From Streptomyces sp. NRRL S-118 (GTDB taxonomy: Bacteria; Actinomycetota; Actinomycetes; Streptomycetales; Streptomycetaceae): 64,000 bases of DNA. This document shows, one piece after another, positions 1 to 17,169 of this stretch. Both the position numbers and the translations under genes were made by a program. The DNA lies in assembly GCF_000716335.1 (NCBI RefSeq), contig NZ_KL591017.1:121011-185010 (forward strand), read 5' to 3'. The notes beneath the pieces are model-generated. The model was not told the origin of the DNA. It saw nothing but the letters and a program-made list of their open reading frames with translations, and ran no database searches. Position 1 is the stretch's first letter. The number at the start of each line of letters is the position of its first letter.

Positions 1-35
1 AGCTGACCGACCCCCGGATCGCCCCGGCGCCGGAC

Positions 36-124
36 ACGAAAAAGCCCAGGTCAGGGATACGGACCTGGGCTTTCTCATGAAAGCCGCCTTCGGGATTCGA
101 ACCCGAGACCTACGCATTACGAGT
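36..124. repeat. attL: left direct repeat of the AICE
   Basis: This 89-bp copy matches 17081-17169 with three mismatches (two in the terminator loop, one between terminator and tRNA). The 42 bp at 83-124 are identical to the 3' part of tRNA-Thr up to the anticodon loop; identity stops right after GAGT. It is the tRNA fragment left at the far end after site-specific integration. Bases 1-35 are therefore chromosome outside the element. Confidence 0.93.
41..73 (-). terminator. Copied tRNA-Thr terminator hairpin in attL
   Basis: AAAGCCCAGGTC (41-52) pairs perfectly with GACCTGGGCTTT (62-73) around a 9-nt loop. On the minus strand the hairpin runs into a T stretch. It duplicates the hairpin at 17086-17118 as part of the att repeat, so it keeps a terminator facing out of the left end of the element. 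Confidence 0.8.
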
Positions 125-241
125 TGTCCGATCTTGGTCCGGGTGAGTCCACGTCCGTCCGCTCCAGTCCCAAACCCGCTGCTGAGCGCAGGAAGCCGTA
201 CTTCTGTGGACGTCAGTGCACCACCCGGAGCCCCACCCCGT

Positions 242-260
242 TGAGACCACAACTGAGACC
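242..260. other. Putative integrase arm sites, left end
   Basis: TGAGACC occurs at 242-248 and 254-260, start to start 12 bp. The same pair in the same orientation and spacing lies at 17014-17020 and 17026-17032. The rest of 125-398 has no recognisable gene apart from the ribosome binding site of the kinase. Confidence 0.45.
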
Positions 261-398
261 GAGCTGTGTGGGCGTCGCCGACCCGGTATGAACTTCAGAC
301 GGTCGGGTTCGGCCAAACCGCTTGAACGCACGACCACATGCGGGATGATTGTGTGGTCACACCATCACTTCGCGTAGTGCAGAACGGCGAGGAGAGAC

Positions 399-1223
399 TT
401 GAACGAGCCTGCCGTGCCACGGTTCGCACCTGGAGAGGTGGCTAAACAGCTTGGCGCGGAGGCCACGTTCCTCGGCGCCGGCGCCTTCGGCGACACATGG
501 AAGGTAGGCGGCGAGGCAGTCAAGATCATCTGTGCCGACGACTACTCCATGGCGCGGCTGGAACGTGAAGTTGAGGGACTTCGTCGCGTCAGCTCACCTC
601 ATGTTGTCGCCTTCCACGGCCCCATCACTGTCCGCCTTGGCGGTAGAGCCAGGCCAGGATTGCGGTTCGAGTACATCGCCGGTGGCGACCTTGAGGGGCG
701 GATAGCTGATGGCGAGCTGTTGCCTCCTGAGCATGCAGAAGAGTGCCTAAGAGGACTTTTGGTCGGAGTCCAAGCACTACACAAGGCCGCCACCATCCAC
801 CGCGACATCAAACCCGCTAATATCGCTTTGCGTAACGGGAGATGGCAGGACCCAGTCATTTTGGACCTGGGACTCGCTAAGCAGATCGACGCGAGCACCA
901 TCACCATCTACCCCGGGCACATCGGAACTTTTCCTTACATGGCGCCCGAGCAATTGATTGGGCAGCGAGCGAGAAAAGCAGCCGATCTATGGGCCATCGG
1001 AGTCACAATCCGGCACGCCCTGACCGGTAAGCACCCCTTCTACGAGATAGATCAGTCGTACACTGTCGATGAGGCATACACGCGCCTGACTCAGGGACCG
1101 CAATCGCTACCCGGCAACTGCCCTGAGAATGTCTCGGCAATTCTTGACCGACTCACGTCGGTCGTGGAACACGAGAGAGGAAGCGTTTCAAGCAATCTGC
1201 TACGCCTGAGTCGCGGTTACTGA
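399..1223 (+). CDS. Small cytoplasmic Ser/Thr protein kinase
   Basis: This 274-residue protein is a single Hanks-type kinase domain. It has the glycine loop GAGAFGDTW (about residues 26-34), the ATP-anchoring lysine in AVKII, the catalytic loop HRDIKPANI, the metal loop as DLGLA instead of DFG, and the activation segment end GTFPYMAPEQ. There is no transmembrane segment and no PASTA or sensor domain, unlike the housekeeping kinases of Streptomyces. It starts at TTG with GAGGAGAG just upstream. A putative partner follows after 13 bp. Codon use is less GC-biased than in the transfer genes, a sign of recent arrival. The substrate is unknown; a role in phage defence or self-control of the cargo is inference. 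Confidence 0.85.
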   Translation: MNEPAVPRFAPGEVAKQLGAEATFLGAGAFGDTWKVGGEAVKIICADDYSMARLEREVEGLRRVSSPHVVAFHGPITVRLGGRARPGLRFEYIAGGDLEGRIADGELLPPEHAEECLRGLLVGVQALHKAATIHRDIKPANIALRNGRWQDPVILDLGLAKQIDASTITIYPGHIGTFPYMAPEQLIGQRARKAADLWAIGVTIRHALTGKHPFYEIDQSYTVDEAYTRLTQGPQSLPGNCPENVSAILDRLTSVVEHERGSVSSNLLRLSRGY

Positions 1224-1236
1224 GTGGGGGGTTGCA

Positions 1237-2658
1237 ATGCATCAGGACGAGCCCGATCCGATGCCTGAGGATGACCTGGATTGGTCGACAGGCGTACAGG
1301 GCGAACTTGACTGGCCGATGGTGGACGAGGAGCAGCTAGAGAACGCCGCGCTGAACGCCTATCTAGATGCCGAGGACGAATATGCTCCCCTGCCCAGCGA
1401 AGATAGCTTCCTCATACTGAGTGGCGATAACGCGGGCAGCGTAGTTACCGCTCCGCCAGCAGGGTCGGTGGCGAGCAAAAGTGGAATTGCGCCGCCCAGG
1501 ATTGAGCGAGATCAGGCGCTGTTGGGATCACGACCCATTTACCTCGTTCAGCGTGGGGGCAGGTACCACAGGTTCATACCCCGCGTTCTTGTCGGCCTCC
1601 ATGCGTCCTACGGAGACAGCTTGGCTTTGGGCGCAATTGCGAATCTCCCATCAGCCAATGCGCAAGCTCACCGCGATTTTTTCGCTCTTTCTCCAGTATC
1701 TGCGCTTCAGATTGCAGATCCCCGCTGCTACCTCCTCGATAAAGACATTCTGCGCCTCCAGAAGGAGCCGATCACGGCTCGCGGCTATAAGAACGCTCCC
1801 TACCTCGCCCACGCCGACGCGCGTGATTGGGTGCAACACGTGCTCGACGCTCAAAGAGGCGCGGGAGCAAACCTCCTCCTGACTCCGGGCCGGGCGTTGG
1901 ACCCCGACGATCCTCAACGATCTCTAGACCGGGCCTATGAGGAAGGCGACGACGTCCTGTCGCGTCTTGGCCGCGGTGAGCGCGTCGCACTAAATCTCAC
2001 GTTGCCCGCCCGCTGGCTTTCAAGCGCGGCGCTGAGAAACCGCCTTCTGGACCAAATAATGGACCAGGATCAATTCGACACCCTCTACGTCCGTGTGCAG
2101 TGGGCTCAAGGCAAAGCCTTCACCCCTCCGGACGACGCCGAGCTGCTTGCGGGCATCAAGAAGCTCGCCAACCTGTGCGCGGATGAGGAGCGGTGTCTGC
2201 TTCTACCACAGACGGGTATGACAGGCTGGTACGCTCTCGCGCACGGGGCTGCTGGGTTTGGACTTGGCGTCAGCGGGGCCGACCAGGCTTTTGCCGAATA
2301 CGTCTTCCGCCCCGGCGCCAAGGGCGCGGTCGAAAGGTACTTCGAAAAGCAGCTTCTCCACACGCTGGATAGGAATACGCACAAGGTTCTTGCCAGGACA
2401 CCTGGCTATGTACGGTGCACCTGCCCATACTGCCCAGCGCTCTTCGCAAACGAGCCATGGTCTCACGAACTTTCCGCCCTGCACTACTTGCACAACATGG
2501 GCGAACTTACGGCCAAGGTGCAGCGGGACTCGGCACGCAATGGAAGGCACGCCGCCCTCAGGAGAATTGTTGCGGCCGCCCAAAGATTCGCTACTGGCCT
2601 GCCTCTCAGCACGGAGCAGTCTCCAAAGCATTTGGACGCCTGGGGTCAGGCCCTGTAG
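1237..2658 (+). CDS. TGT-like CxCxxC protein of unknown function
   Basis: This 473-residue protein begins with an acidic, disordered-looking region (about 1-85). The long middle part alternates strand- and helix-like segments, as in a TIM barrel. Near the C-terminus CTCPYC (about residue 400) is followed about 17-20 residues later by LHYLHNM and a helical tail. That C-x-C-x2-C...H arrangement followed by Asn resembles the zinc site of tRNA-guanine transglycosylases and their DNA-modifying DpdA relatives. I cannot place the catalytic aspartates with confidence, so base exchange is only a hypothesis. The gene follows the kinase by 13 bp with a G-rich ribosome site (TGGGGGG), so the two probably form an operon. 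It overlaps the convergent nuclease gene by 53 bp. Confidence 0.7.
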   Translation: MHQDEPDPMPEDDLDWSTGVQGELDWPMVDEEQLENAALNAYLDAEDEYAPLPSEDSFLILSGDNAGSVVTAPPAGSVASKSGIAPPRIERDQALLGSRPIYLVQRGGRYHRFIPRVLVGLHASYGDSLALGAIANLPSANAQAHRDFFALSPVSALQIADPRCYLLDKDILRLQKEPITARGYKNAPYLAHADARDWVQHVLDAQRGAGANLLLTPGRALDPDDPQRSLDRAYEEGDDVLSRLGRGERVALNLTLPARWLSSAALRNRLLDQIMDQDQFDTLYVRVQWAQGKAFTPPDDAELLAGIKKLANLCADEERCLLLPQTGMTGWYALAHGAAGFGLGVSGADQAFAEYVFRPGAKGAVERYFEKQLLHTLDRNTHKVLARTPGYVRCTCPYCPALFANEPWSHELSALHYLHNMGELTAKVQRDSARNGRHAALRRIVAAAQRFATGLPLSTEQSPKHLDAWGQAL

Positions 2659-3394
2659 AAGTGGTTAGGTGACTTCCAAACACGTGTTGGATGGGGCCGC
2701 TCACCTTGCCGTGCATGCACAGTTCAGCGGCCCTCTCCACCAATAGCTCCCGGTAGACACTTTCTCCACGGCTTTTAGCCGGCTTCGGAGCAACCAGCGG
2801 CTTCAGACCGGTTTTTTGGTCTAGAGATGCAAGCCCGATTCCCGCGATCGAGAACCAGTCGCGATGGGCGAGAGCTGGTGCGGACAGCTCAGCATCAAGC
2901 ACGAGCCAGGCTTCATCGGCAGCTAGCCCATGTCGAAGAGTTTGATGGTAGCCGCCTCGCCAGTCCCGAATCTTCGCTTCGATGGTGCAAATTCGAGTAG
3001 CTAGGCTGCGGAAGCGACTCACCGCCCTCCATTGCCCCCTCGAATGCTTTTCCACGTGCCCCGAACTAGCGAGCTGGGGTAGGACCGTAGAGGAAATATG
3101 CCCAGGACTCAAACGAGTCTGCTTGGCGATCTGGGAAGGAGACAGAGACTCCCCCAATCTCTTCTGGAGGGACAATAGGACGCTCATACCGCCAAGATCT
3201 AGGATCAACCCCTGTGACCGCAAACGCCGTTGGCGGACCGCTTCTTCGTCGAAACACACAAGGACAATGTCAGGAATGCCGGAAGTTGACTGAACCTCAA
3301 AAAATACCCTACTTCTTGCGCCGATCAACTTAGATGCGTGCTTAACAATTGGTTCGAGCATGTCGGCTTCTCTCACAAACTGCGCTTTTGGCAT
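2606..3394 (-). CDS. PD-(D/E)XK nuclease-like protein with inserted HTH
   Basis: The 262 residues fit a restriction-type nuclease core split by a winged-helix insert. GIPDIVLV supplies the PD motif (Pro41-Asp42), IEAKIRDW supplies ExK (Glu139-x-Lys141), and Gln151 sits on the following helix. Between them residues about 83-125 (SPSQIAKQTRLSPGHISS and onward) look like an MarR/GntR-like helix-turn-helix. A short C-terminal region has no match I recognise. The gene is convergent with the kinase/TGT-like pair and overlaps it by 53 bp, so it is probably part of the same cargo although separately transcribed. GGAG lies just before the ATG. Nuclease activity is inferred from motifs only. Confidence 0.65.
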   Translation of the reverse strand: MPKAQFVREADMLEPIVKHASKLIGARSRVFFEVQSTSGIPDIVLVCFDEEAVRQRRLRSQGLILDLGGMSVLLSLQKRLGESLSPSQIAKQTRLSPGHISSTVLPQLASSGHVEKHSRGQWRAVSRFRSLATRICTIEAKIRDWRGGYHQTLRHGLAADEAWLVLDAELSAPALAHRDWFSIAGIGLASLDQKTGLKPLVAPKPAKSRGESVYRELLVERAAELCMHGKVSGPIQHVFGSHLTTSTGPDPRRPNALETAPC

Positions 3395-3737
3395 GAGCGC
3401 AACTCCTCGACTCGAACCTAGGAACAGAAACTAGCAACGGAAGTCTAGCGGAAATTCTGCCACCACGGCTAACAGAACGGCTAAAATCGACGCAGTTGAC
3501 TGTGTTGGACGTCTGCATGCGAAATTGCTCACCCTTTTTGTCGAGCCTGTCGGCCGAGGTCCCTACATAGAGCGTTGAGAGGCAGCAGCCTGACGACTTC
3601 ATCCCAGCCACCGCACCTGAGGCGGTGCGTAGACCTCCTACCCCCCGCCTCACCGACGACGGTTCCAGGCACTCCGCATGGGTCGCAAGTCATGGGAGTC
3701 TTGTGGTCGACGACGGGCGAACAGAGAGGGAGAACGA
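3395..3737. other. Intergenic control region between cargo and GntR gene
   Basis: No gene is supported here. The left half is A/T-richer than the element average and must hold the leftward nuclease promoter. A TTGACT hexamer at about 3496 could be part of a rightward promoter. A weak inverted repeat (CACCGC at 3609-3614, GCGGTG at 3622-3627) precedes the GntR gene. None of these is strong. Confidence 0.4.
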
Positions 3738-4199
3738 GTGTCGCAGCAGGCCAACCCTCGGGGAACCTTCCTGAAGGTTGCCGACTCGGTGAAGGATCAG
3801 ATCGAGGGCGACCCGGACATGACGGAGCTTCCATCCCTGGCGGAGATCATGCGCGACCACAAGGTCTCGCGCGGAGTCGCGCTGCGCGCGTTCGGCGTGC
3901 TGCGACAGGAGGGCGTTGCCGAACCGGTACCGGGCGGGCGGTGGCGAGTCGTGCGTGGGGGTGGGCAAGTCGACCGGCGCCCCCTCGAACAGCGGATCGC
4001 GGACGTCATCGTGACCGACGGACTTGAGGTGGGGCAGCCATTCCCCAGCGCTTCCGCGCTGGCCGACCGGTTCGGGGTGTCGCGTCCCACGGCGTCCAAG
4101 GCCCTGGAGAAGTTGGAGTCCGCCGGCGTGCTGGCGGGAGGCGGACAGGGCAAGGTGCGGACGGTCCGCGCTGTGCCGACGCGAGAGGAGCGTTCGTAG
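3738..4199 (+). CDS. Double winged-helix GntR-family regulator
   Basis: The 153-residue protein has two GntR-type winged-helix units: about residues 20-63 (SLAEIMRDHKVSRGVALRAF) and about 77-140 (SASALADRFGVSRPTASKAL). There is no ligand-binding domain after them. Start GTG at 3738 is chosen because GAGGGAGAAC lies at the right distance; the upstream ATG at 3678 has no ribosome site. GntR regulators are the known master repressors of AICE transfer and excision (KorSA of pSAM2), so this is the likely repressor of tra or xis/int. It probably forms an operon with the HD gene, whose TTG start follows its stop by one base. Confidence 0.8.
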   Translation: MSQQANPRGTFLKVADSVKDQIEGDPDMTELPSLAEIMRDHKVSRGVALRAFGVLRQEGVAEPVPGGRWRVVRGGGQVDRRPLEQRIADVIVTDGLEVGQPFPSASALADRFGVSRPTASKALEKLESAGVLAGGGQGKVRTVRAVPTREERS

Positions 4200-4200
4200 C

Positions 4201-4767
4201 TTGCCGGAGTTGACAGAGTGGGCCTATCCCCTGGCTGAGTCACTGCTCGCCGAGCCGCTGCCGCGGCGGTGGAAGCACTGCCTCGGAGTCGCCGAGAGGG
4301 CGCGCACGATTGCGCTCGTACTCGGCCAGGACGCCGATCTACTGGAGGCCGCGGCCGTCCTGCACGACATCGGTTACGCGCCGGACCTGGCCAAGACTGG
4401 CTTCCACCCGCTGGACGGGGCCCGCTATCTCCGAGACGTGGCCGGCGCCGACAACCGCGTCATCAACCTGGTCGCCCACCACTCCTGCGCCTGGCTGGAG
4501 GCGGAAGCGCGCGGTATGCGCAGGGAGCTGGAGGCCGAGTTCCCCCGGGAGAGCGCGCACCTGAACGACGCACTCTGCTACTGCGATATGAACACGACGC
4601 CGGACGGTACGCCCACGAACCCGATCGACCGAATCAACGAGATTGCCGGGCGATACGGGCCCGACAGTCTGATCGGTATGTTCATCCGCCGGGCCGAGCC
4701 GGAGATCCTCGCGAGCACGTCGCGTGTCCTTGAACGGGTCGCTACCGTCAAGCGTCAGCCAATGTAG
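4201..4767 (+). CDS. HD-domain phosphohydrolase
   Basis: The 188-residue protein carries a compact HD domain. HCLGVAERA supplies the first histidine, VLHDIGY the HD pair, FHPLDGARYL and VAHHS the later histidines. HD proteins of this size hydrolyse phosphate esters of nucleotides or related small molecules; the substrate here is unknown. Start TTG at 4201 follows the GntR stop directly, with AGGAG about 11 bases upstream. The 3' end overlaps the convergent Nudix gene by 13 bp. The GntR-HD/Nudix neighbourhood recurs in Streptomyces AICEs and suggests a shared nucleotide-linked control of transfer. Confidence 0.8.
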   Translation: MPELTEWAYPLAESLLAEPLPRRWKHCLGVAERARTIALVLGQDADLLEAAAVLHDIGYAPDLAKTGFHPLDGARYLRDVAGADNRVINLVAHHSCAWLEAEARGMRRELEAEFPRESAHLNDALCYCDMNTTPDGTPTNPIDRINEIAGRYGPDSLIGMFIRRAEPEILASTSRVLERVATVKRQPM

Positions 4768-5228
4768 GGGGTCGTCCGCGCCCGGTCTATGGCGTGCTCG
4801 ATGCGGAGACGCATGGTGGGGTGGATGTTCAACGTCGACAAGTCCGCTGGGTCGACCCAGCGGACTTGTGTCGTCTCGTTGCTCGTACGCAACTCACCGC
4901 CGACGGGGCGCGCGCGGAAGCAGATGCTGAACTGCTGGCGAACCTCTCCGTCGTCGTACTGCATCACGTGACCGGGGTCGGTGTAGATCCCGGACATGCT
5001 GACGACTTCGGCCTTGATGCCGGTCTCTTCCCAGACTTCGCGCACCACGGTGTCGCTGATCGACTCGCCCGTGTCGTGGCCACCGCCGGGCAACGCCCAG
5101 CGCCCGTTGTCGGACCGCTGGATCATCAGCACCTGGCCGGCATCGTTCTGGACGAAGGCCACGACAGACGGGACGACCGAGTTGGCCGGCGGGGCGTCAG
5201 GATCATGCAGGTAGTCGATGCGTCCCAT
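4755..5228 (-). CDS. Nudix hydrolase (Pif-like position in AICE)
   Basis: The 157-residue protein has an exact Nudix box at residues 49-71: Gly49, Glu55, Arg63-Glu64, Glu67-Glu68 and Gly70, which binds the metal and cleaves a nucleoside diphosphate linked to another group. pSAM2 encodes a Nudix protein, Pif, that blocks redundant transfer between donor cells, so an immunity role is plausible here. It lies 3 bp behind the XRE gene and is clearly co-transcribed with it. Its tail overlaps the HD gene by 13 bp. The substrate cannot be told from sequence. Confidence 0.88.
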   Translation of the reverse strand: MGRIDYLHDPDAPPANSVVPSVVAFVQNDAGQVLMIQRSDNGRWALPGGGHDTGESISDTVVREVWEETGIKAEVVSMSGIYTDPGHVMQYDDGEVRQQFSICFRARPVGGELRTSNETTQVRWVDPADLSTLNIHPTMRLRIEHAIDRARTTPYIG

Positions 5229-5231
5229 ATT

Positions 5232-5990
5232 TCAAGCTCCCGTGATGTCGCGATCCGTGATCTGGCGTGCGCCTCCCCAGGTCTGTTCGATGCTATTCGC
5301 GTAGGTGTCGAACAGACCGCCACCCGGCATACGCCGTAGGTGAAAGACCGGCGCCATGTAGGCACCGATGCCATAGACGTGGGGGTTGACGAGCATCTCG
5401 TCATCGGACCGGTAGATGGAGTTGTAGAGCGTAGTCGCGTGCAGGCGGAAGCCAATCTCTGGATGGCTCTTGAAGAGAGGCCGATAGTTCACCAGCGCGT
5501 TCCGGATCTTGCCGTCCATGACCCGGTGACCTTCGTCTACGCCGCGCTGCTGAACGGCTTCGCAATCGGGGTCCCCCAGCAGGATGCGTACCTGCGTGGT
5601 TCCCTCGGTCTTCTTCTTCAGGAGATCCAGGAACACAGGATCCTCGGACAGGAAGAGCCCCGAGTAGACCAGCACGTCAAGGTTCCTCTCGGCCCTCGCG
5701 TACAACTGCCGCCAGAGGCCGGGGGGCACGGTGTGCCGATGCGGGTAGACAGCGACGATCTCCGCTTTGGTCAAGTCCGTCGCGGCGTCGACCGCACGGC
5801 TGTCATCCCACAGTGTCGTGACGTCGACGTTGAGCGCTGCGGCCGTTGAGTACTGGTGTCGCCGGTACGGCACTTTGCCCTGCGTGATCCAGCGCTCAAC
5901 CGTCTTCGGGTTGACTCCGATCTCGTCAGCCAATCCCTGAACGGTCATGCCACGGGCTAACAGAGCCGACCGCAGGCGTTCGTTGGACAT
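5232..5990 (-). CDS. XRE-family regulator with PLD-like C-terminal domain
   Basis: Residues 1-60 form a Cro/C1 helix-turn-helix (TVQGLADEIGVNPKTVERW). Residues about 90-252 form a second domain (LDVLVYSGLF, VRILLGDPD, SIYRSDDEMLV) that resembles the phospholipase D-like fold of the DUF5919 type but lacks a visible HKD motif, so it more likely senses than cuts. Start ATG at 5990 is preferred over the far upstream codons because GGGGGTG precedes it. It heads the leftward operon with the Nudix gene. The perfect palindrome at 6154-6190 lies in its upstream region and is the obvious candidate operator. Confidence 0.8.
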   Translation of the reverse strand: MSNERLRSALLARGMTVQGLADEIGVNPKTVERWITQGKVPYRRHQYSTAAALNVDVTTLWDDSRAVDAATDLTKAEIVAVYPHRHTVPPGLWRQLYARAERNLDVLVYSGLFLSEDPVFLDLLKKKTEGTTQVRILLGDPDCEAVQQRGVDEGHRVMDGKIRNALVNYRPLFKSHPEIGFRLHATTLYNSIYRSDDEMLVNPHVYGIGAYMAPVFHLRRMPGGGLFDTYANSIEQTWGGARQITDRDITGA

Positions 5991-6153
5991 CTGCACCCCC
6001 GATGGGACGTCTAGGGACTTCTTGACGGTAGCGAGAACTCCCTGAGCTGTCCACGCATGGGGTAACCAACTCCCGCTACCTGCGCCGATGCTGAGTGGGC
6101 GCCAGAGCACATCGGCGCAAAGCCAAGCGACTCCGTCGACGTGCTTGACGAAC

Positions 6154-6190
6154 CTGCATGTAGTACCTGTAAAACAGGTACTACATGCAG
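6154..6190. promoter_or_regulatory. Perfect inverted repeat, candidate operator
   Basis: Arms CTGCATGTAGTACCTGT (6154-6170) and its exact complement (6174-6190) flank AAA. The stretch is A/T-rich against its surroundings. TTGACG at 6145-6150 and TGTAAA at 6168-6173, 17 bp apart, would make a rightward promoter whose -10 lies inside the repeat, so a bound repressor would silence the transfer operon. The likely binder is the XRE or the GntR protein; which one cannot be told. Confidence 0.65.
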
Positions 6191-6473
6191 CGGGGGCGAG
6201 ATTCGCTCGGCTGGGTGGCGGCTGATGTCGCACGTGCAGAGGGCGGGGACGCTGCAATCCCGCTAAAGGCCAGGTGGAACAGGGTTTCGGCCCGTACTGG
6301 CGAGGTGGCCCGGTGACCGCGAGCAACGGCCGGAGAGTGGGGACGAGGTCCCCCTTGCAGTGCTTAATTCCCCATTGCTCGACACCAAGGAGGCCCGGTG
6401 CTCCGAAGAAGACTCCAGGCGCCGCCACCACTGGACCGGCGAGACGGCCACGCCCACCGCATTACCTGACCCC

Positions 6474-6493
6474 CCGCAGCAGCCTTGCTGCGG
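6474..6493. other. Short hairpin
   Basis: CCGCAGCA pairs with TGCTGCGG around GCCT. It lies in the leader of the transfer operon. No T run follows, so it is not a clear terminator. Confidence 0.4.
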
Positions 6494-6574
6494 CCGGTTG
6501 CCTCCCCTGCCCGTCCGGCCTTCGGGCTGTACGGGCGGGGCCGAGGGGAGCCGGATTGCTGGTTCCAACGGCGT

Positions 6575-6600
6575 GCCCCCGGTGCTGGAACACCGGGGGC
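6575..6600. other. Leader hairpin before the transfer operon
   Basis: GCCCCCGGTG pairs with CACCGGGGGC around CTGGAA, 41 bp before the first start codon. A 10-bp GC stem without a T run at this place could be a transcript-stabilising or attenuating element of the transfer-operon leader. Confidence 0.5.
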
Positions 6601-6641
6601 GCTGTTCGGGCCGTTCCCACCTGTGAGAGGAACACGACCCA

Positions 6642-6911
6642 ATGAGCCACATCGTCACTGTTCAGGACGCTGTTACCGCGTTCGCCGACTTCATGGAGCC
6701 GACGAACGCGGAGCTGGACGCCATCGAGCAGGAGATGCCCGTAATCCTCGCGGACGTCGACCTGCTGGACGCCCACATCGTCACCCTCGACCGCACACCG
6801 ACCGAGCTGGACGAGCGGCGTATCCGCCGGGCCCGCCGCCGCGCGCTGGCCGCCCGGGTCGCGCTGGTCAACCGCACGGCCGGTACGAGCCTTTCCGGCG
6901 GTGCCGCGTGA
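6642..6911 (+). CDS. Small conserved AICE protein (DUF6284-like)
   Basis: This 89-residue acidic-then-basic helical protein has EPTNAELDAIEQEMP followed by a long helix with RRIRRARRRALAAR. It resembles the DUF6284 family found as the first gene of many Streptomyces transfer operons; the family has no known function and my match is from memory. There is no membrane segment. GAGAGGAA precedes the ATG. Its stop overlaps the GTG start of the next gene by 4 bp, so it is translationally coupled to the transfer operon. Confidence 0.7.
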   Translation: MSHIVTVQDAVTAFADFMEPTNAELDAIEQEMPVILADVDLLDAHIVTLDRTPTELDERRIRRARRRALAARVALVNRTAGTSLSGGAA

Positions 6912-7357
6912 GCACCGTGACGGAGAAGAGCCTGACCGCCGCCCACGCGGAGGTTAAGGCGGAGATCGCGCGGACGGACACGAAGACGGCGCTGCTGCTG
7001 GCGTTCGTCGGCGCTGTCCTCGCCGGCGCCTGGACGGTCGCCCGCGACCTGTCGTTGCACACGGCCGCGAGCATCGTCGGCGGTACCGGTATGGGCGTGC
7101 TGATCGCCGCGGCCGGTCTGTTGCTGCGGTCGGTGCGGCCAAACCTGTCCGGGCGACACGGCTTCCCGCTGTGGGCCACCCTCACGGCCGAGGAGATCAC
7201 GGCGGCGGTGCAGAGGGACATGGCCGCTGACATTGCCGGGCTGTCCCGGCTGGCGGTCGCCAAATTCACCTACCTGCGCCGCGCGGTCGACTTGATCTGC
7301 GCCGGTGGGCTGCTGCTCATCCTCACTGCGCTGATCGCGGCAGGGGGTGCGCTGTGA
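6908..7357 (+). CDS. Pycsar-effector-like two-helix membrane protein
   Basis: The 149 residues have an N-terminal helix with TDTKTALLLAFVGAVLAG leading into a first hydrophobic stretch (about 25-48), a second one (about 55-77), the link VRPNL...GFPLWATL, a helical segment (EEITAAV, LSRLAVAKFTYLRRA) and a third hydrophobic stretch at the C-terminus. This layout matches the PycTM/Pycsar effector family (DUF5706). In Pycsar defence such proteins bind cyclic UMP or CMP and damage the membrane; in AICEs they are common and unstudied, probably in transfer or pore control. The GTG start and the stop both sit in 4-bp overlaps with neighbours. Confidence 0.75.
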   Translation: MSTVTEKSLTAAHAEVKAEIARTDTKTALLLAFVGAVLAGAWTVARDLSLHTAASIVGGTGMGVLIAAAGLLLRSVRPNLSGRHGFPLWATLTAEEITAAVQRDMAADIAGLSRLAVAKFTYLRRAVDLICAGGLLLILTALIAAGGAL

Positions 7358-8210
7358 AGGTGAAGACGGTGCTTCCGGCTGTCGCGCTGACGGCCGTGTC
7401 GATGGTGCTCACCCTCGCGGTGGTCATGATGTGGCTGGGTGCGGCGGTGCCGTGGCCGGTCACTCTGGTCGTCGGTCTGGGGATCGACGGGGGATGGCTG
7501 GCCACCCTCGCCTACGAACGTCGCCTTGCCGCGCAGGGGGACCACAACTGGGCCGTTACGGCGGTGGGCTGGTCGTTCGGTGTCCTCGCCGCGGGCATCC
7601 TGGTCGCGCACGCGCTGACCGCTGAGCACTCCGCCGAAGCGTGGCTGGCTGTGGCGTGGCTGCCGATCGCGGCCAAGGCCCTGTGGCTCGTGCACAGCCT
7701 GTGGGAGCGCACCGCGCTCACGCCCCTCGCGCTGGACACGATCCGGGGAATCCAGCAGGAGGCGCGCGACGAAGCGGCCGTGGCCCGTGCCCGGCTACGC
7801 GCAGAAGCGGCCACCGAGGAGACGCGGCTGACGGCCGTGACGGAAGCCGGGGCCCGCGTCGCACGCGTCCAAGCCAAGACCTCACGGATCCTCGCGGGGG
7901 CGTGGTCGACCCTGGAGACCGCCCGTAAGGGCGATGAGACGGGCAGGGCTCTGACCAGCGTGACGACACCCGTCACGCCCGGCGTCGCACCCCGCTGGGA
8001 ACTGCCCGTCTGGGGACCGACCGAGCCGGTTCCGGCGCTGGAGACAGCCGCCCCGGCCCTGTCGGATGACGCGCTGGACACGCTGGTCTACGACATCCGG
8101 CACAGTCAGACCCCGCCCCTGTCCTACCGGGAAATGGCCGCCCGCTTCCGCGCAGCCGGCCACTCCGCTTCCGAGGTCCGGTTGCGGGCTGCGTGGAAGC
8201 GGGTGGCCGC

Positions 8211-8214
<4 letters not shown>
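7354..8214 (+). CDS. Four-helix Spd-like membrane protein
   Basis: The 286-residue protein has four predicted membrane helices (about residues 8-28, 34-53, 66-88 and 95-114). A long charged helical region follows (about 120-185, ARDEAAVARARLRAEAA), then a Pro/Thr linker and a small C-terminal fold (about 230-286, SYREMAARFRAAGHSASEVRL) that looks like a winged helix. It resembles DUF2637/SpdB-type plasmid-spread proteins that help move plasmids across mycelial septa. The cytoplasmic C-terminus could touch DNA or the TraB pump; that is inference. The gene is coupled by 4-bp overlaps to its neighbours on both sides. Confidence 0.7.
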
Positions 8215-8821
<607 letters not shown>

Positions 8822-8825
<4 letters not shown>

Positions 8826-9160
8826 GCACGTTGCCCGTCTTCCGGTGGCGCCTGGCTCCGGACGGCTACGCCACCCGCCGCCAACTCCGGGCCCGTGGCC
8901 TGCGGCCCGGTGGTCAGGGTGTGGCCGCTCAGCTCGAAAGGCCCCGGCGGCGGGGCCGCCCGCCCCTGGTCGCCTACCTCTACCGCATCGACCTGGCCAA
9001 GCCGGTCCGGCCCATGACTCCGGCCCGGTGGGCCGCACTCGCCAAGGCCAACGCCGCCCGACGCACCTGCCCCGCCTGTCGGCGCGACGCCGGCTACGCC
9101 ATCCCCCCGACGCTCGGCACGTGCGTGCCGTGCGCCTACCCCGAGCAGTACGCCGCCTGA
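8822..9160 (+). CDS. Small RRQL / zinc-ribbon AICE protein
   Basis: This 112-residue protein has an N-terminal WRLAPDGYATRRQLRARGL motif and a C-terminal CPAC...CVPC pair (about residues 83-104) typical of a zinc ribbon. The RRQL segment recurs in small proteins of Streptomyces AICEs and plasmids; its function is unknown. The GTG start overlaps the cyclase stop by 4 bp. A nucleic-acid or protein adaptor role is plausible from the zinc ribbon but not shown. Confidence 0.7.
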
Positions 9161-9241
9161 AGTCCCGGCAGGGCCGGTCCGCTCACCTCCTACAGCGACG
9201 GACCGGGCCCCGCCTTCCCTCTGCGAGAGAAGGAAGTCTCA

Positions 9242-11416
9242 GTGAAGCATCCCGACGACGACCACGAATTGTTCAACCGCCTGGAAGCCGAGATGGCGGC
9301 CGACCAGGGCGCCGACGTAGTCGACCTGGACAAGGCCCGCGCCGCCCGCGAACCGGCCCCCGCCACCGGCCCGGAGCCGGCGGACCCGGGCACGCCGGTC
9401 ATGGTCGACCAGCCGGCGCCCGCGGCGACCGGTCCCGGCTACCTCGGGCGGCTCGCCGGCGCTCGCCGCCGCCCGGTCGTGCCCCTCTGGCTGAAGTCCG
9501 TGGCTGAGCTGCGCACCGCCGCCGCGTGGGTGGCCCGGCACTACGCCCACGCTGCCGGCTACCACGTGCTGCGTGCCCCCGTCTACGCCGCCCGGCTCGC
9601 CCTCCAGGCCCCGGCCGGCGCCGCGAAGGTCGTTGGGGGCACGATGCGGTGGGTGGCCGACCGCGAGGGCGAACCGGTCCGGCTCGCCGCCGTGCGCCGT
9701 GAGGACGCTGCCGAGTATCTGAAGCTGTCGCGCCAGCGTGACGGACGGGTCCGGCTGCGGACCCTGGTCGCCGCGCTCGCGCTGTTCACCGGTCTCGGTC
9801 TGGCGCTCGCCCTGTACGTGCTGGCCCCCGACTGGCTGCAGGCCGTGTCCGTCGGCGCGGTCGTCCTCGCCCTGGGAGCGGCCGGCCGCAAGCCGGACGC
9901 CCCGGTCGTGCACCGCGCGGTGGAACTGCCCAAGGCAACCAAGCTCACCAGTGACATCGTGCTGCGGGCGCTGGGAGCGCTGGGCATTCCCGCGATCAAT
10001 CAGGCGCAGGGCAAGGGCCGGGACGGGTTCGAGTTCACCGCCCCGATCACCCGCGACGGGCCCGGCTGGCGCGCGGAGGGGAACCTCCCCTATGGCGTGA
10101 CCGTGACGGACATCATCGAGCGTCGCGAGCGGCTCGCCTCCGGTCTGCGCCGCCCGCTCGGATGCGTGTGGCCCGAGGCGGTCCCCGACGAGCACACCGG
10201 GCACCTCGTGCTGTGGGTCGGGGATCAGGACATGTCCCGTGCCTCTCAGCCGACGTGGCCGCTGCTGAAGTCCGGGCAGGTGGACCTGTTCAAGCCGGTC
10301 GCCTACGGCACCGACCAGCGCGGCCGGTGGACTGAAGTCACGCTCATGTACATCGCGGGCGTCATCGGCGCGATCCCGCGCATGGGCAAGACGTTCCTCC
10401 TGCGTCTGCTGCTGCTGATTGCGGCTCTCGATCCGCGTGCTGAGCTGCACACCTACGACATGAAGGGCACCGGCGACCTGGACCCGGTCGGCAACGCGGT
10501 CGGCTACCGGCACGCCGCCGGCGACGACGACGAACCCGTGCAGTACGCGCTGAACGACTTCCGGGCCCTGCGCGAGGAACTGCGCCGGCGCACGAAGGTC
10601 ATCCGTTCCCTGCCCCGGGACATCTGCCCCGAGTCCAAGGTAACCAGCGCTCTTGCCGACAAGCGCTCCCTCGGTCTCCACCCGATCGTGGTGGGGGTGG
10701 ATGAGTGCCAGGTCCTCTTCGAGCACCCCGAGCACGGCAAGGAGTTCGAGGAGGTCATCACCGACCTGGTCAAACGCGGCCCCGCCACCGGCATCGTGGT
10801 CCTGCTGGCCACGCAGCGACCCGACGCCAAGTCGCTGCCCACCGGGATCAGCGCCAACGCGTCCGCCCGGTGGTGCCTGAAGGTGATGGGCCAGCTGGAG
10901 AACGACATGGTCCTCGGCACCTCCGCCTACAAGCGCGGGGTGCGGGCGACCATGTTCGCCTGGGGAGACAAGGGCATCCACTACTTCGTGGGTGAAGGCT
11001 CCGACGCCCGTATCGTGCGCTCCGTCTACGTCGACGCCGGCGGCGCCGAAGCCATCGCAGCCCGCGCCCGCCGCGTCCGCGAGAAGACCGGACTGCTCGC
11101 CGGCCACGCGCTCGGGGAAGCACCGGAGCCGACCACGGCCGCCTATGACCTGCTCGCGGACATCCTCGCGGTGGTCCCGGCCAAGGAAGCCAAGGTGTGG
11201 TCGGAAACCATCGTGACCCGGCTCGCGGACCTGCGCCCCGAGGTCTACGACGGATGGGACCCCGACGCGCTCGCCGCCGCGCTCAAGCCGCACGGCGTGT
11301 CCACCATCCAGGTTGGGCGCCGGGTCAACAGCAAGGTCGTCAACCGGCGCGGAGTCGACCGCTCCCACATCACCACCGCAATCGCAGAGCGTGATGGGAA
11401 GCGGGACGCGGGCTGA
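9242..11416 (+). CDS. traB: TraB/FtsK-type conjugative DNA translocase
   Basis: The 724-residue protein is the DNA pump that moves double-stranded element DNA between mycelial cells. A charged N-terminus (1-175) is followed by two membrane helices (about 175-220). The motor has Walker A in GAIPRMGKTF (about 375-385) and Walker B in VVGVDECQVLF with Asp487-Glu488. ATQRPDAKSLPTGISAN is the conserved post-Walker segment of FtsK-like pumps. The C-terminal part (about 620-724) contains a small helix-turn-helix-like fold that would recognise the clt locus. GTG start at 9242 has GAGAAGGAAG upstream. Repeats at 11431-11514 directly behind it are candidate clt. Confidence 0.95.
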   Translation: MKHPDDDHELFNRLEAEMAADQGADVVDLDKARAAREPAPATGPEPADPGTPVMVDQPAPAATGPGYLGRLAGARRRPVVPLWLKSVAELRTAAAWVARHYAHAAGYHVLRAPVYAARLALQAPAGAAKVVGGTMRWVADREGEPVRLAAVRREDAAEYLKLSRQRDGRVRLRTLVAALALFTGLGLALALYVLAPDWLQAVSVGAVVLALGAAGRKPDAPVVHRAVELPKATKLTSDIVLRALGALGIPAINQAQGKGRDGFEFTAPITRDGPGWRAEGNLPYGVTVTDIIERRERLASGLRRPLGCVWPEAVPDEHTGHLVLWVGDQDMSRASQPTWPLLKSGQVDLFKPVAYGTDQRGRWTEVTLMYIAGVIGAIPRMGKTFLLRLLLLIAALDPRAELHTYDMKGTGDLDPVGNAVGYRHAAGDDDEPVQYALNDFRALREELRRRTKVIRSLPRDICPESKVTSALADKRSLGLHPIVVGVDECQVLFEHPEHGKEFEEVITDLVKRGPATGIVVLLATQRPDAKSLPTGISANASARWCLKVMGQLENDMVLGTSAYKRGVRATMFAWGDKGIHYFVGEGSDARIVRSVYVDAGGAEAIAARARRVREKTGLLAGHALGEAPEPTTAAYDLLADILAVVPAKEAKVWSETIVTRLADLRPEVYDGWDPDALAAALKPHGVSTIQVGRRVNSKVVNRRGVDRSHITTAIAERDGKRDAG

Positions 11417-11430
11417 CGCTCCGGGGCAGC

Positions 11431-11514
11431 TAACGATAGCGGCAGCCCCCGCTAACGTTAGCGGCCCCGCTAGCGCCCCAAACCACCTCTGATCAGGCCG
11501 CTAGCGGATAGCGG
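11431..11514. repeat. TAGCGG/CCGCTA repeat cluster, candidate clt
   Basis: TAGCGG stands at 11437, 11459, 11502 and 11509, and CCGCTA at 11449, 11467 and 11498. Two copies form the perfect palindrome CCGCTAACGTTAGCGG (11449-11464). The known clt locus bound by TraB is a set of short repeats near the 3' end of traB, and this cluster begins 15 bp after the traB stop. It could also be a promoter operator for the genes that follow. Confidence 0.55.
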
Positions 11515-11557
11515 CCCACCTGCGCAAACCCCAGAAACCCGCCAGGAAGGGCCCCGC

Positions 11558-11833
11558 ATGACCCCCGCCCTGCTCGCTATCGCCTGCCTGCTCGCCATCA
11601 CCCTCGGTTACGGCGGTGTGTGTGCGGTGTCGCCATTCGGTGACTGCCGCCGCTGCCGTGGCATGGGCCACGCCCTCAAAACCGACCGCAAGGGACGCAT
11701 GAAGCGCGGCAAGGACTGCCGCCACTGCCACGCCACCGGCAAGCGCATCCGTACCGGCCGCTGGCTCTACAACCGCTGGGCGCGCATCTACCGCACCGGC
11801 ACCGACACCGACACCCCGGAAGGGTCCCGATGA
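11558..11833 (+). CDS. Membrane protein with DnaJ-like CxxCxGxG motifs
   Basis: The 91-residue protein starts with a hydrophobic helix (about 3-28). CRRCRGMG (about 30-37) and CRHCHATG (about 53-60) follow, separated by a basic stretch; this spacing resembles half of the DnaJ zinc centre. The C-terminus is basic (RWLYNRWARIYR). It lies in the spread-gene position of the AICE. Function is unknown; a membrane-tethered zinc module that holds a protein partner or DNA is possible. Its stop overlaps the next start as ATGA. Confidence 0.7.
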   Translation: MTPALLAIACLLAITLGYGGVCAVSPFGDCRRCRGMGHALKTDRKGRMKRGKDCRHCHATGKRIRTGRWLYNRWARIYRTGTDTDTPEGSR

Positions 11834-12024
11834 TCCTCAACATCTCCGCCGTGCTGCTGTTCGGCACCGCCTCCATCTTCGCGGTCAAGACGAAGTCCAC
11901 CGGCGGCGGCGCCGCGCTCGTGCTGTTCCTGTTCGGGTTCTTCACCGCCGGCACCGGCGCCTACGAGCCCATCCACAACCTCGTGCAGGCATCCGCCGAC
12001 GCCCTGTCCGCCCTCGGCAACTGA
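11830..12024 (+). CDS. Small two-helix membrane protein (Spd-like)
   Basis: The 64 residues form two hydrophobic helices (about 2-20 and 27-45) with a short KTKSTGG loop between and a polar C-terminus. Size and position fit the small Spd proteins that support intramycelial plasmid spread. It is coupled to the preceding gene by a 4-bp ATGA overlap. No motif gives a more exact function. Confidence 0.65.
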   Translation: MILNISAVLLFGTASIFAVKTKSTGGGAALVLFLFGFFTAGTGAYEPIHNLVQASADALSALGN

Positions 12025-12037
12025 AGGAGACCCGGCC

Positions 12038-12493
12038 GTGAACGAACCCACCACCCACCACGCCGCGCCCCTCGTGGTCCACCACCCCACCCCGCTCACC
12101 CCCGCCGCCATCCACCCGGCGCCGGTCGTCCCCATCCAGCCGAGCACGGTGCCGGCGGTCGCGAGCGTCGTCCTTCCCGACGGGCGTGTCGTCACCGGCT
12201 ACGCCGTGGCACCGGCTCAGCCGGAACCGGTCGCCGCCAAGCCGGCTGTGTCCCGCTCGGCGGTGAACGTCGCCCTCGGAGGCGTCGGGTTCGGCGCAGT
12301 CTGCGGCGGGCTGTTCCTGCTGACCTCGTTCATCACGGCGCTGGCCGCGTTCATCCACCAGCTCGTCATCCTCGCCGCCGTCGTCTTCGGCGGCTGGATC
12401 GCCGTGCAGGTCTTCAGCGGCCGCGGCCGCCGGGGCGGGATGACCGTGAACATCCGCAAGGCCGTGTTCAAGCGCAACCACTTCCCCAGCTAG
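12038..12493 (+). CDS. Spd-like membrane protein with Pro-rich N-terminus
   Basis: The 151-residue protein has a His/Pro/Val-rich flexible N-terminus (1-75), two membrane helices (about 76-98 and 103-125) and a basic C-terminus (GRGRRGG...RKAVFKRN). It resembles DUF6251-type proteins of AICEs and Streptomyces plasmids; that match is from memory. It starts at GTG with AAGGAGA at good distance. It is the last gene before a strong terminator and so closes the transfer/spread unit. Confidence 0.7.
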   Translation: MNEPTTHHAAPLVVHHPTPLTPAAIHPAPVVPIQPSTVPAVASVVLPDGRVVTGYAVAPAQPEPVAAKPAVSRSAVNVALGGVGFGAVCGGLFLLTSFITALAAFIHQLVILAAVVFGGWIAVQVFSGRGRRGGMTVNIRKAVFKRNHFPS

Positions 12494-12500
12494 CTACGCC

Positions 12501-12543
12501 AAGGGCGGCCCCTCCGTCTCGCCAAAGCCGCGGGGCCGCCCTT
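12501..12543 (+). terminator. Terminator of the transfer/spread unit
   Basis: AAGGGCGGCCCC (12501-12512) pairs with GGGGCCGCCCTT (12532-12543) over a 19-nt loop. It lies 8 bp behind the last spread gene and before the replication genes. Confidence 0.75.
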
Positions 12544-12583
12544 GTCCACCTGCCAACCACTTGACTTGTGGAGGTCTCCCAGC

Positions 12584-13471
12584 ATGACGCAACCGACCCT
12601 GCTCCGGCGAGTACGCGGCGACATGAGCACGCTGCCCGAACCCCTGCGGACCGCGTTGACACTGGCCGCTACCGGGGTGCCGGTGCTGCCCCTGCGCGCG
12701 GGGAAGGCGCCGTTCGGCAACTGCCGTACCTGCGCGGGCAACGCGTGTGGTGGCCGGCCGAACATGAAAAGTGCGGGCCCCTGCCAGTGCCCCGGCGTCT
12801 GCCACGCATGGGCCGCCGCCACCACCGACCCGGTCGTTCTCACCTCCCCGCCATGGGCGGCCGCATGGCAGCGGGCGGTCTGCGTTGCCTACCACCCCGG
12901 CGCTGGCGGGCTGACCGTGGTGGACCTGGACAACGCCGACGCCGTCGACTGGGCACGTACTGCCCTGCCCGCCACCCGAACCGTGCAGACGACGCGCGGT
13001 GAGCACTGGATCTACCAGGGCACCATGACGTCGTCCAACAGGGTGCGTCCCGGCGTCGACATCAAGTCCACGATGGCCTACGCCCGCTACCTCGGGCCCG
13101 GCGCCGGTCACCTGGCCGACCTGCCGAACGCTGTGCGCGCGCTCGCGGTGAAGAAGCCTTCCCCGGCCCGGCTGGCGCCGCATGCGGGCGTCGTGCCCGC
13201 GGGCGCCGGCGGTGGGGAGTGCCCGCACCGCACGCCGGTCTATCTGGAGCGCGGCATCGCCATGGCCGAGCAGCGCATCACCGCGGCTTCCAGTGCGGTC
13301 CACGCCACCGTCTACCGCACGTTCCTCGCGGTGCTGTCCACGCATGGCCGGTGCGGCTGCCTGACCGACGCGCACATCACCCGCCTGTTCGCCGCCGCGC
13401 AGGCCAAGGGCGAGAGCGCCCGGCACTGCACCGACGCGTGGACCAACGCCCGCACCACCCTGGGGATGTGA
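12584..13471 (+). CDS. Primase-polymerase (RepPP-type AICE replication protein)
   Basis: The 295-residue protein is an archaeo-eukaryotic primase/Prim-Pol. The catalytic DxD is in VVDLDNADAV (Asp114, Asp116), the sxH-type histidine is His141 in GEHWIYQG, and the third acid is Asp159 in GVDIK. A Cys-rich insert (CRTCAGNACGG, CQCPGVC, about 46-75) is usual in this actinobacterial branch. ATG at 12584 is chosen because GGAGG precedes it. With the helicase that follows after 3 bp it forms the initiator pair of RepPP-type AICEs, which replicate after excision and before transfer. Confidence 0.88.
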   Translation: MTQPTLLRRVRGDMSTLPEPLRTALTLAATGVPVLPLRAGKAPFGNCRTCAGNACGGRPNMKSAGPCQCPGVCHAWAAATTDPVVLTSPPWAAAWQRAVCVAYHPGAGGLTVVDLDNADAVDWARTALPATRTVQTTRGEHWIYQGTMTSSNRVRPGVDIKSTMAYARYLGPGAGHLADLPNAVRALAVKKPSPARLAPHAGVVPAGAGGGECPHRTPVYLERGIAMAEQRITAASSAVHATVYRTFLAVLSTHGRCGCLTDAHITRLFAAAQAKGESARHCTDAWTNARTTLGM

Positions 13472-13474
13472 GCC

Positions 13475-14947: not shown

Positions 14948-14977
14948 CCTGCCGCGCCGCGCCATCGGCGCGGACAA

Positions 14978-15019: not shown

Positions 15020-15134
15020 AGTTCGGCGGCTCGCCGCCGCGCGATGGTCGCGCCGCGAAGCGGCTCCGCATTCGCGCTCTGAGCCGAGCCGCACCACTAC
15101 AGACACCCTCCCTTTGTCCTAAGGGAAGAGGCGC

Positions 15135-15405: not shown

Positions 15406-15609
15406 ATGAGCACCGCGATTGCCGCTCCCGTCGATCGACTCCTGTACAAGCCCGAAGAGGCTGCCGAGGCGCTCGCCGTCGGCCGTTCGACTGTCTACGA
15501 GCTGATGGCCGAAGGAAGTCTGAAGTACATCAAGTTGGGCCGCACTCGCCGAATCCGGCGTGCCGACCTCGAAGCGTACGTGGCCAACCTCGCCCCGCTG
15601 CCCAACTGA
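15406..15609 (+). CDS. xis: Excisionase, MerR-like HTH
   Basis: The 67-residue protein is a single winged helix-turn-helix of the excisionase/MerR type: YKPEEAAEALAVGRSTVYELM, then KYIKLGRTRRIRRADLEAYV. It bends attL and attR DNA and steers the integrase to excise the element. ATG at 15406 has TAGGAGA at good distance. It sits just before int, the usual AICE order, but a strong hairpin separates the two, so their expression may be uncoupled. Confidence 0.92.
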   Translation: MSTAIAAPVDRLLYKPEEAAEALAVGRSTVYELMAEGSLKYIKLGRTRRIRRADLEAYVANLAPLPN

Positions 15610-15624
15610 CCCCAGCACGTCACC

Positions 15625-15657
15625 GAGGCGCCCCGAGCATCTTGCTCGGGGCGCCTC
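15625..15657 (+). terminator. Hairpin between xis and int
   Basis: GAGGCGCCCCGAGCA (15625-15639) pairs perfectly with TGCTCGGGGCGCCTC (15643-15657) around TCT. It is as strong as any terminator in the window, yet the int start follows only 17 bp later. It may attenuate read-through from xis into int. Confidence 0.7.
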
Positions 15658-15673
15658 CCGCATGGAGGAGCAC

Positions 15674-17080
15674 ATGAGTCCCCGAAAGCCCAACATGGAG
15701 TCGTCCATCTACTTCGGTGCCGATGGCTGGTGGCACGGCCGCGTGACGATGGGCGTCAAAAGTGACGGTGGGCCCGACCGGCGCCACCGCCGGGCCCGGA
15801 CCGAGGCCGAGATCAAGCGCAAGGTGAAGGAGCTAGAACGCCAACGCGACCAGGGGCGCGCGCCCGCCGCCGGCCGTAAGCCGACCGTCACGGCGTGGAT
15901 GGTGACCTACCTCACGGATATCGCGAGCCTGAAGCTCAAGCCGCGCTCCCTCGACGACTACTGGTCCAAGACCCGCAACGACATCATCCCCGGCGTCGGC
16001 AAGCACCGCATCGACAAGTTGCAGCCCGAGCACTTGGAGCGGATGTACCGGGCCATGCTCGACGCCGGGCACGCTCCCTCGCACGTCGTGAAGGTGCACC
16101 GCATCCTGTCCCGTGCTTTGAAGATCGCCCACCGCCGCCGCATCGTCGGCGAGAACGTCGCCACGCTCGTGGACCCGCCAAGCATTGACGAGACCGAGGC
16201 CAACCCCTTCACCAAGGAGGAGGCGAAAGCGTTCCTCGAAGCCGCGGCGAAGCGGCCCACCTTCATGCGGTGGGTCGTCGGAGTCGGCATGGGCTTCCGG
16301 CAGGGCGAGACTCTCGGGCTGCGCTGGTCGTACGTCGATCTGCAAGCAGAGCTATTCCGCCCAGAGTGGCAACTTCAGCGCCTCACGTGGCGGCACGGGT
16401 GTGACGACCCGCATGCCTGTGGGGGGCGGCTGCACCGCTTCGAGCCGTGCCCGCCGGACTGCACCTCGCACAAGGGCTACAAGCGTGGTTGCCCGAAGCC
16501 GTGCGCCAAGACGTGCACCAAACACGCAAGCACCTGCCCGGAGCGCAAGGAAGGCGGGCTCACCTTCACCCGACCCAAGACCAAGAAGAGCCGGAACGCC
16601 GTGCCGATCCCGCCCGTGTTCGTTCCCTTCCTGCTCGACCACAAGGCCCGGCAAGAAACGGAACGGGAAGCTGCCGGGGAACTGTGGCAGGAGCACGACG
16701 TCGTCTTTTCCCGTCCGGACGGCCGGCCACTGGATCCGCGCGCCGACTACGAGGAGTTCAAGGAACTGCTCAAGGAGGCCGGGATCGATGACCGCCGCCT
16801 GTACGACGGGAGCCGCCACACCGCCGGCACGATCCTGAACGAGCTGGGCGTCGACATGCCCACGATCATGGAGATCCTGAGGCACACGCAGATCAGCCAG
16901 ACCCGGCGGTACGTCAAGGGCCGGTCCCACCTGTCCAGGGACGCCATGCGGAGGATGGGCGAGTTTTTCGTATCGCCGCCGACGCCTCCGTCAGCCCCCA
17001 ATCCGGGCCCCACTGAGACCAGAAGTGAGACCACCGACACCCGTGCGGCACGCTCCCTGCGCCGTCGCCGCATCCGCTGA
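15674..17080 (+). CDS. int: Tyrosine recombinase (AICE integrase)
   Basis: The 468-residue enzyme integrates and excises the element at tRNA-Thr. It has an arm-binding N-terminus (about 1-60), a core-binding SAM-like domain (about 70-165) and a catalytic domain with Arg209 (MGFRQGETLGL), Arg381-His382-Thr (GSRHTAG), His404 (ILRHTQ) and nucleophile Tyr413 (TRRYVKG). Between the first Arg and the RHT box lies a Cys-rich insert with eight cysteines (about 240-300), probably zinc-binding and seen in other Streptomyces AICE integrases. ATG at 15674 has GGAGGA. The stop lies directly at the attR repeat, and the 3' coding end carries the putative right arm sites. Confidence 0.96.
   Translation: MSPRKPNMESSIYFGADGWWHGRVTMGVKSDGGPDRRHRRARTEAEIKRKVKELERQRDQGRAPAAGRKPTVTAWMVTYLTDIASLKLKPRSLDDYWSKTRNDIIPGVGKHRIDKLQPEHLERMYRAMLDAGHAPSHVVKVHRILSRALKIAHRRRIVGENVATLVDPPSIDETEANPFTKEEAKAFLEAAAKRPTFMRWVVGVGMGFRQGETLGLRWSYVDLQAELFRPEWQLQRLTWRHGCDDPHACGGRLHRFEPCPPDCTSHKGYKRGCPKPCAKTCTKHASTCPERKEGGLTFTRPKTKKSRNAVPIPPVFVPFLLDHKARQETEREAAGELWQEHDVVFSRPDGRPLDPRADYEEFKELLKEAGIDDRRLYDGSRHTAGTILNELGVDMPTIMEILRHTQISQTRRYVKGRSHLSRDAMRRMGEFFVSPPTPPSAPNPGPTETRSETTDTRAARSLRRRRIR
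17014..17032. other. Putative integrase arm sites, right end
   Basis: TGAGACC at 17014-17020 and 17026-17032, same orientation and same 12-bp period as the pair at 242-260; 17 of the 19 bases agree. Here the sites lie within the 3' end of int. Confidence 0.45.
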
Positions 17081-17169
17081 ACGAAAAAGCCCAGGTCAGG
17101 GGTACCGACCTGGGCTTTCTCATAAAAGCCGCCTTCGGGATTCGAACCCGAGACCTACGCATTACGAGT
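17081..17169. repeat. attR: right direct repeat of the AICE
   Basis: The 89-bp repeat begins at the base after the int stop and ends in the anticodon arm of tRNA-Thr. It matches 36-124 with three mismatches. The 42-bp identical core is 17128-17169. The complete tRNA gene is kept at this end. Confidence 0.93.
17086..17118 (-). terminator. tRNA-Thr terminator
   Basis: AAAGCCCAGGTC (17086-17097) pairs with GACCTGGGCTTT (17107-17118); on the minus strand the stem runs into TTTTT. It lies 9 bp behind the tRNA 3' end. Confidence 0.88.

Follow-up and report, generated by a model that had tools for sequence, protein, structure and literature searches.

What do three adjoining genes at the edge of a mobile element do together? 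The question arises from a 64,000-nucleotide stretch of Streptomyces sp. NRRL S-118 (contig NZ_KL591017.1, positions 121,011 to 185,010; the window). It begins with genes for a protein kinase, a protein resembling tRNA-guanine transglycosylase (TGT) and a nuclease, carried by an actinomycete integrative and conjugative element (AICE). The three genes are co-inherited, recur in unrelated neighbourhoods and form one conserved module. The trio can be read as a self-contained, horizontally moving cassette, most likely a putative defence module against invaders (phages or foreign plasmids), and about an even chance is given to this reading.

A conserved three-gene module

The first gene (399..1223, + strand) starts with TTG and codes for a stand-alone Hanks-type Ser/Thr kinase of 274 amino acids. 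The gene of a TGT-fold protein, the proposed recognition subunit, follows after 13 bp (1237..2658, + strand, 473 amino acids); the position of the nucleophilic Asp is apparently taken by Gly342. The proposed effector is encoded on the opposite strand (2606..3394, - strand): a PD-(D/E)XK nuclease of 262 amino acids with an inserted winged helix-turn-helix (HTH). The latter two genes converge with a 3' overlap of 53 bp (2606..2658). Such an overlap was found in 19/20 loci measured and spans 4-101 bp. The re-check of the window confirmed the open reading frames, the gap and the overlap described by the initial annotation. Its less GC-biased codons were also found: the GC content at third codon positions is 0.57-0.66 in the trio versus 0.86-0.94 in six other genes of the same element. 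The left-edge position holds as well, with the trio directly inside the left attachment repeat attL (36-124). Because dN/dS among the copies of the window, S. iakyrus and S. lydicus is 0.065-0.131 (kinase 0.10, TGT-like protein 0.067-0.082, nuclease 0.065-0.131), the trio behaves as real genes, and these are under purifying selection.

Searches with the TGT-like protein provided 26 loci: 17 from a set with one genome per species, 8 from phylum, genus and plasmid searches, and the window. The initial annotation had named co-occurrence outside the element as a test of its proposal. The trio passed this test, with all three genes at 24/26 loci, beyond what chance would give, in unrelated neighbourhoods, and at 22/24 once two identical copies are removed. 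One of the two exceptions (L018) is a fragment with a 66-residue match only, where BLAST detected no trio gene. The other (L014) is a Nocardia cyriacigeorgica contig: its TGT-like gene (7444-9411) has a tRNA-Arg and no kinase just upstream, and the nuclease match is weak and cut by the contig end. The trees were built without the identical copies (L057 = L006, L058 = L016). Pairwise identities of the three proteins correlate at 0.92-0.97, and the main groups recur in all three protein trees. Several deep forks differ or are without support, and L053 with L059 is flagged for long branches in the nuclease tree. L059 comes from the same genus as the window and clusters with a copy from an Arthrobacter plasmid (support 100/99; 50% identity between the TGT-like proteins), which points to horizontal transfer.

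Carriers are rare: 3/396 genomes of the phylum and 5/392 Streptomyces genomes. Strong nuclease matches are confined to exactly the same five Streptomyces genomes; a distant form is present in one more, G583. Only kinase, TGT-like protein and nuclease recur, and no fourth gene is common to the module across contexts. Relatives were absent from the viral contig collection and the phage records searched; this absence gives no support to a viral origin of the trio and speaks neither for nor against defence. In Streptomyces fulvorobeus (L016:7995-9415, the same as L058), the TGT-like gene is split into frames of 67 and 388 amino acids, with kinase and nuclease open.

Kinase, TGT-fold protein and nuclease

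The kinase matches Pfam Pkinase (E 9.3e-32), and its closest solved relative is PknA (E 2.1e-20). In the window it has the motifs HRDIKPAN, DLGLA and APEQ; HRD, DxG and PE are present in 29/29 module kinases, seven of these distant. The kinase motifs are intact and the protein is a Hanks-type protein kinase.

The second protein has the TIM-barrel fold of the TGT type, so that the likeness noted by the initial annotation stands at the level of the fold. The zinc ligands of the Escherichia coli TGT (C302, C304, C307 and H333) align with C394, C396, C399 and H416 (codons at 2416..2484, + strand), which are kept in 24/24 loci of the window family. The nucleophilic Asp and one base-reading Asp appear to be replaced, in a mapping inferred from strand order rather than from superposed coordinates. 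By this mapping, position 342 (nucleophile, E. coli D264) is Gly in 20, Ser in 3 and Thr in 1 of the 24 loci, and position 218 (base reading, E. coli D143) is Gly in 23 and Thr in 1. The Pfam TGT model (PF01702) matched none of 50 family members at E up to 10, and the sequence search of PDB structures gave no match. DpdA was not recognised either: no DpdA model of PADLOC was matched (E up to 1), and PF23859 was absent from the matches of the 50 members.

Canonical TGT was found in 0/31 genomes of the own genus and order (the host and 30 relatives) and in 68/119 genomes of the phylum sample, and the host has two partial QueC matches of 22-24 bits. The base modification assigned to the TGT-like protein by the initial annotation was not borne out, given the apparent loss of both Asp residues; the missing host TGT and the weak QueC matches are further evidence against it. 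A deazaguanine sensor might demand carriers that avoid canonical TGT, and with it queuosine, but this idea was rejected, since 6/18 genomes with the TGT-like gene have a canonical TGT. DpdA-family genes occur in 2/13 carrier genomes; the own genome and 10 others are without one. One of the two (L005:15922-16839, - strand, PF23859) shares a Streptomyces AICE with the module and lies there between NUDIX and replication genes. The other is on a different contig from the module (L006 genome). The window AICE has none.

The nuclease has no Pfam match. Its core fold presents a D...E-x-K active site, and E33, D42, E139 and K141 are invariant in 19/19 aligned sequences. In the structure model, a winged-HTH-like insertion (residues 66-125; 3020..3199, - strand) separates the active-site motif into two parts. 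This agrees with the PD-(D/E)XK/HTH nuclease of the initial annotation. The alignment of 19 sequences was preferred to an automated motif scan, whose 28/31 included chance matches (e.g., L059, L020, L052).

Mobile carriers and distant relatives

The host element has all features of an AICE: tRNA attachment repeats, an integrase, an FtsK-type transfer gene and replication genes. It is bounded by 89-bp direct repeats with 97% identity. The left one, attL, holds the 3' end of a tRNA-Thr gene; the right one, attR (17081..17169), overlaps an intact tRNA-Thr(CGT) at 17127-17200 (- strand). The backbone runs from GntR, HD, NUDIX and HTH genes to FtsK, replication genes and integrase. The FtsK-type gene (9242..11416, + strand) has 73% identity with its FtsK-annotated counterpart in NZ_CP107792.1. 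The site-specific integrase (15560..17080, + strand) shares 39% identity with an integrase annotated on a plasmid of an actinomycete and is the last gene before attR. NZ_CP107792.1 (L101), a circular Streptomyces plasmid of 18.4 kb, has the same backbone order as the window element (1-17200). Its interval between integrase and GntR is filled by other genes, without the trio. The trio therefore occupies the cargo slot of an AICE, as the initial annotation had placed it. AICEs carry the trio in the window, L002, L005, L006 and L016; it is also located on a conjugative Arthrobacter plasmid. Streptomyces lydicus (L003) shares the cassette in a single blastn match (117..3487, 82%) and has nothing else of the window AICE.

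Weaker nuclease matches in nine genomes led to seven examined regions; two matches (E 6.8e-4 and 8.7e-4) were left out. In five regions (L083, L084, L085, L087, L088), the nuclease is accompanied by a kinase and by a middle protein of about 380-424 amino acids. L089 has no kinase beside its nuclease and middle protein, and neither kinase nor middle protein was recognised in L086, at a contig start. The gene order is kinase, middle protein and convergent nuclease in L083 and L084, and nuclease-kinase-middle protein in L085, L087 and L088. Between the main group of distant middle proteins and the window family, hhalign gives an alignment of 340 columns (Prob 98%, E 1.5e-13), and a profile of distant middle proteins recovers the TGT-like protein of genome G025 (E 4.8e-13). 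The pair L083/L084 matches the main distant group with Prob 95%. It is tied to the window family only through this group, because the direct match has just Prob 0.8%. Neither group matches canonical TGT by sequence, and the zinc pattern is present in 0/5 distant middle proteins (L083, L084, L085, L087, L088). Short distant nucleases of 147-169 amino acids (L088, L089, L090, L093) seem to be without the HTH insertion.

All three genes of the distant form are located on a Polaromonas plasmid and, 1-2 bp apart, on a plasmid of the haloarchaeon Natribaculum breve. Plasmid p1 of Bradyrhizobium sp. 62B (L092, 470-6879) carries a fragmented trio close to a SAVED-domain gene, and the Arthrobacter AK-1 plasmid encodes nuclease and middle protein. 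Sets of kinase, TGT-like protein and nuclease, frequently carried by mobile elements, occur in Actinomycetota, Pseudomonadota and a haloarchaeon. The L083 contig (G583:C15) has two equal-scoring distant trio copies (3228-6020 and 8627-11419) 5.4 kb apart, either a tandem duplication or an assembly artefact.

Proposed function and known systems

A defence role of the trio is likely, though putative. The TGT-fold protein would have lost base exchange and may act as a reader of nucleic acid, of a nucleobase or of a partner that carries a modification. The kinase, from the same operon, may sense infection or switch the complex by phosphorylation. The nuclease is predicted to be transcribed separately and, aided by its own winged HTH, may cut nucleic acid of the invader or the host. 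Because no modification enzyme is recognised in the cassette, the discrimination between self and non-self would have to come from gating by the kinase or from the TGT-like reader. An undescribed immune system of bacteria and an archaeon, with an inactivated TGT-fold recogniser, a Hanks kinase switch and a PD-(D/E)XK cutter, is a tentative reading, held with somewhat less than even confidence. In its boldest form, the pocket would read 7-deazaguanine in phage DNA, making the trio a kinase-gated, modification-dependent restriction system; this is a long shot.

Several observations weigh against defence by a TGT-derived reader. Among 189 neighbouring genes from 18 loci, recognisable defence genes are close by in few neighbourhoods, among the matches listed. 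Wadjet JetA, JetB and JetC directly follow the module in Arthrobacter gallicola (L011), a SIR2-domain gene is 4.7 kb away in Rhodococcus koreensis (L008), and the PADLOC candidate gene PDC-S01 is near the module in L009. The remaining neighbours among these matches are mostly regulators, metabolic or mobile-element genes, and the defence-island evidence is thin. The best PADLOC matches of the kinase, mad6 (5e-38) and PD-T4-6 (1.1e-37), reflect kinase domains in general. TGT catalysis seems to be lost, as read from the strand-order mapping. Comparison with 25 canonical TGTs by hhalign gave Prob 3%, with a confident alignment in the zinc region only. Ungapped profile diagonals against canonical TGT scored 14.6, not significant beside column shuffles (mean 13.2, maximum 21.4). 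The TGT kinship rests on fold plus zinc site; proof at the sequence level failed.

The trio could instead be a toxin-antitoxin or addiction system that stabilises the mobile element, with the nuclease (or the kinase) as a toxin restrained by phosphorylation, by the TGT-like protein or by both. The location on mobile elements, the convergent overlapping genes of 19/20 loci and an HTH by which the nuclease could autoregulate would suit it. Toxin-antitoxin systems are usually small pairs, however, and three genes of 262-473 amino acids, including a kinase and a large TGT-fold protein, make this explanation unlikely; distant relatives with all three genes in one operon indicate that the convergent layout is not essential. 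The fold itself could point to RNA as a target. TGTs bind tRNA, and the zinc subdomain is kept in all 24 loci of the window family, so an abortive system is conceivable in which the TGT fold binds tRNA or another RNA and guides the nuclease to RNA, and infected cells stop growing. The zinc pattern is missing from the five distant middle proteins compared, though, and the winged HTH, together with the similarity to a restriction enzyme that acts on DNA, suggests DNA; RNA targeting is rated as quite improbable.

Competition between elements is given a slightly lower probability still. The module would then serve AICEs and plasmids by excluding related elements or regulating transfer, in line with its presence on five AICEs and the conjugative plasmid. 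The S. lydicus cassette without AICE genes and the related plasmid with the same backbone and no trio in the slot argue against such a service. Least probable, at a very low level, is the restriction-modification of the Dpd type proposed by the initial annotation, with bases of DNA or RNA altered by the TGT-like protein and invaders that lack the modification restricted by the nuclease. It has the TGT fold and the separate DpdA-family gene on the L005 AICE in its favour. It is opposed by Gly, Ser or Thr at the mapped nucleophile position of 24/24 loci, by the lack of matches to the PADLOC and Pfam DpdA models, and by a host without canonical TGT or convincing QueC.

Anti-invader defence remains the preferred reading, and the parts of the trio are of known kinds. 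PADLOC-DB 2.0.0 (2023) has 0 families matched by the second and third window proteins, each at E up to 1. No such three-gene system was found in the literature, which is weak evidence of absence since bioRxiv and most subscription papers were not covered, nor in the available parts of PMC13092281 and PMC13279940 or by a term search of PMC13329287. The combination is a real and recurrent three-gene system and, it seems, an undescribed one. If confirmed, it adds a defence type consisting of a kinase, an apparently inactive TGT-fold protein and a nuclease, with a central protein that neither Pfam nor PADLOC detects. The cassette of about 3.4 kb is directly testable in laboratory Streptomyces.

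A Hanks-type kinase is shared with PD-T4-6, MADS (mad6), PglW of BREX (bacteriophage exclusion) type 2, Stk2 and KKP. PglW likewise combines kinase and nuclease domains, according to PMC12839542. Unlike in these systems, the trio has no PglX, PglZ, MADS or KKP partners, and its kinase always adjoins TGT-like and nuclease genes. The PD-(D/E)XK nucleases 3dnx (SPO1766) and PaqCI (8em1) are not detectably related to the trio nuclease by sequence, and the trio nuclease differs from them by the winged HTH inserted within the active-site motif. TGT homologues in Dpd and in BREX-related capture (BRC) systems are treated as base-modifying parts in PMC12839542. As described there, Dpd shares with the trio a TGT-related protein in a nuclease-containing defence context, and a subset of BRC loci has a TGT homologue. 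DpdA makes modified bases (PMC12839542), in contrast to the trio protein, which has no DpdA model match and seemingly no nucleophile; neither DpdB nor DpdC was recognised beside the trio. BRC involves HerA/FtsK, PglZ and BrxC-type proteins in that text, none of which is in the three-gene cassette.

The likeness to Cap10 of type IV CBASS (cyclic oligonucleotide-based antiphage signalling system) concerns the use of a TGT-family protein as an immune reader, compared here by description only. As described in PMC11996544, Cap10 is a TGT-family enzyme remodelled to bind an N-terminus modified with 7-amido-7-deazaguanine, and it acts with a CD-NTase and the QueC-like Cap9. By this account, a TGT fold can therefore become an immune reader. 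The trio differs by its kinase and nuclease, with no CD-NTase or QueC-like Cap9 seen in the cassette. If confirmed, it would join Cap10 as another example in which a fold for nucleobase modification has been turned to immune reading.
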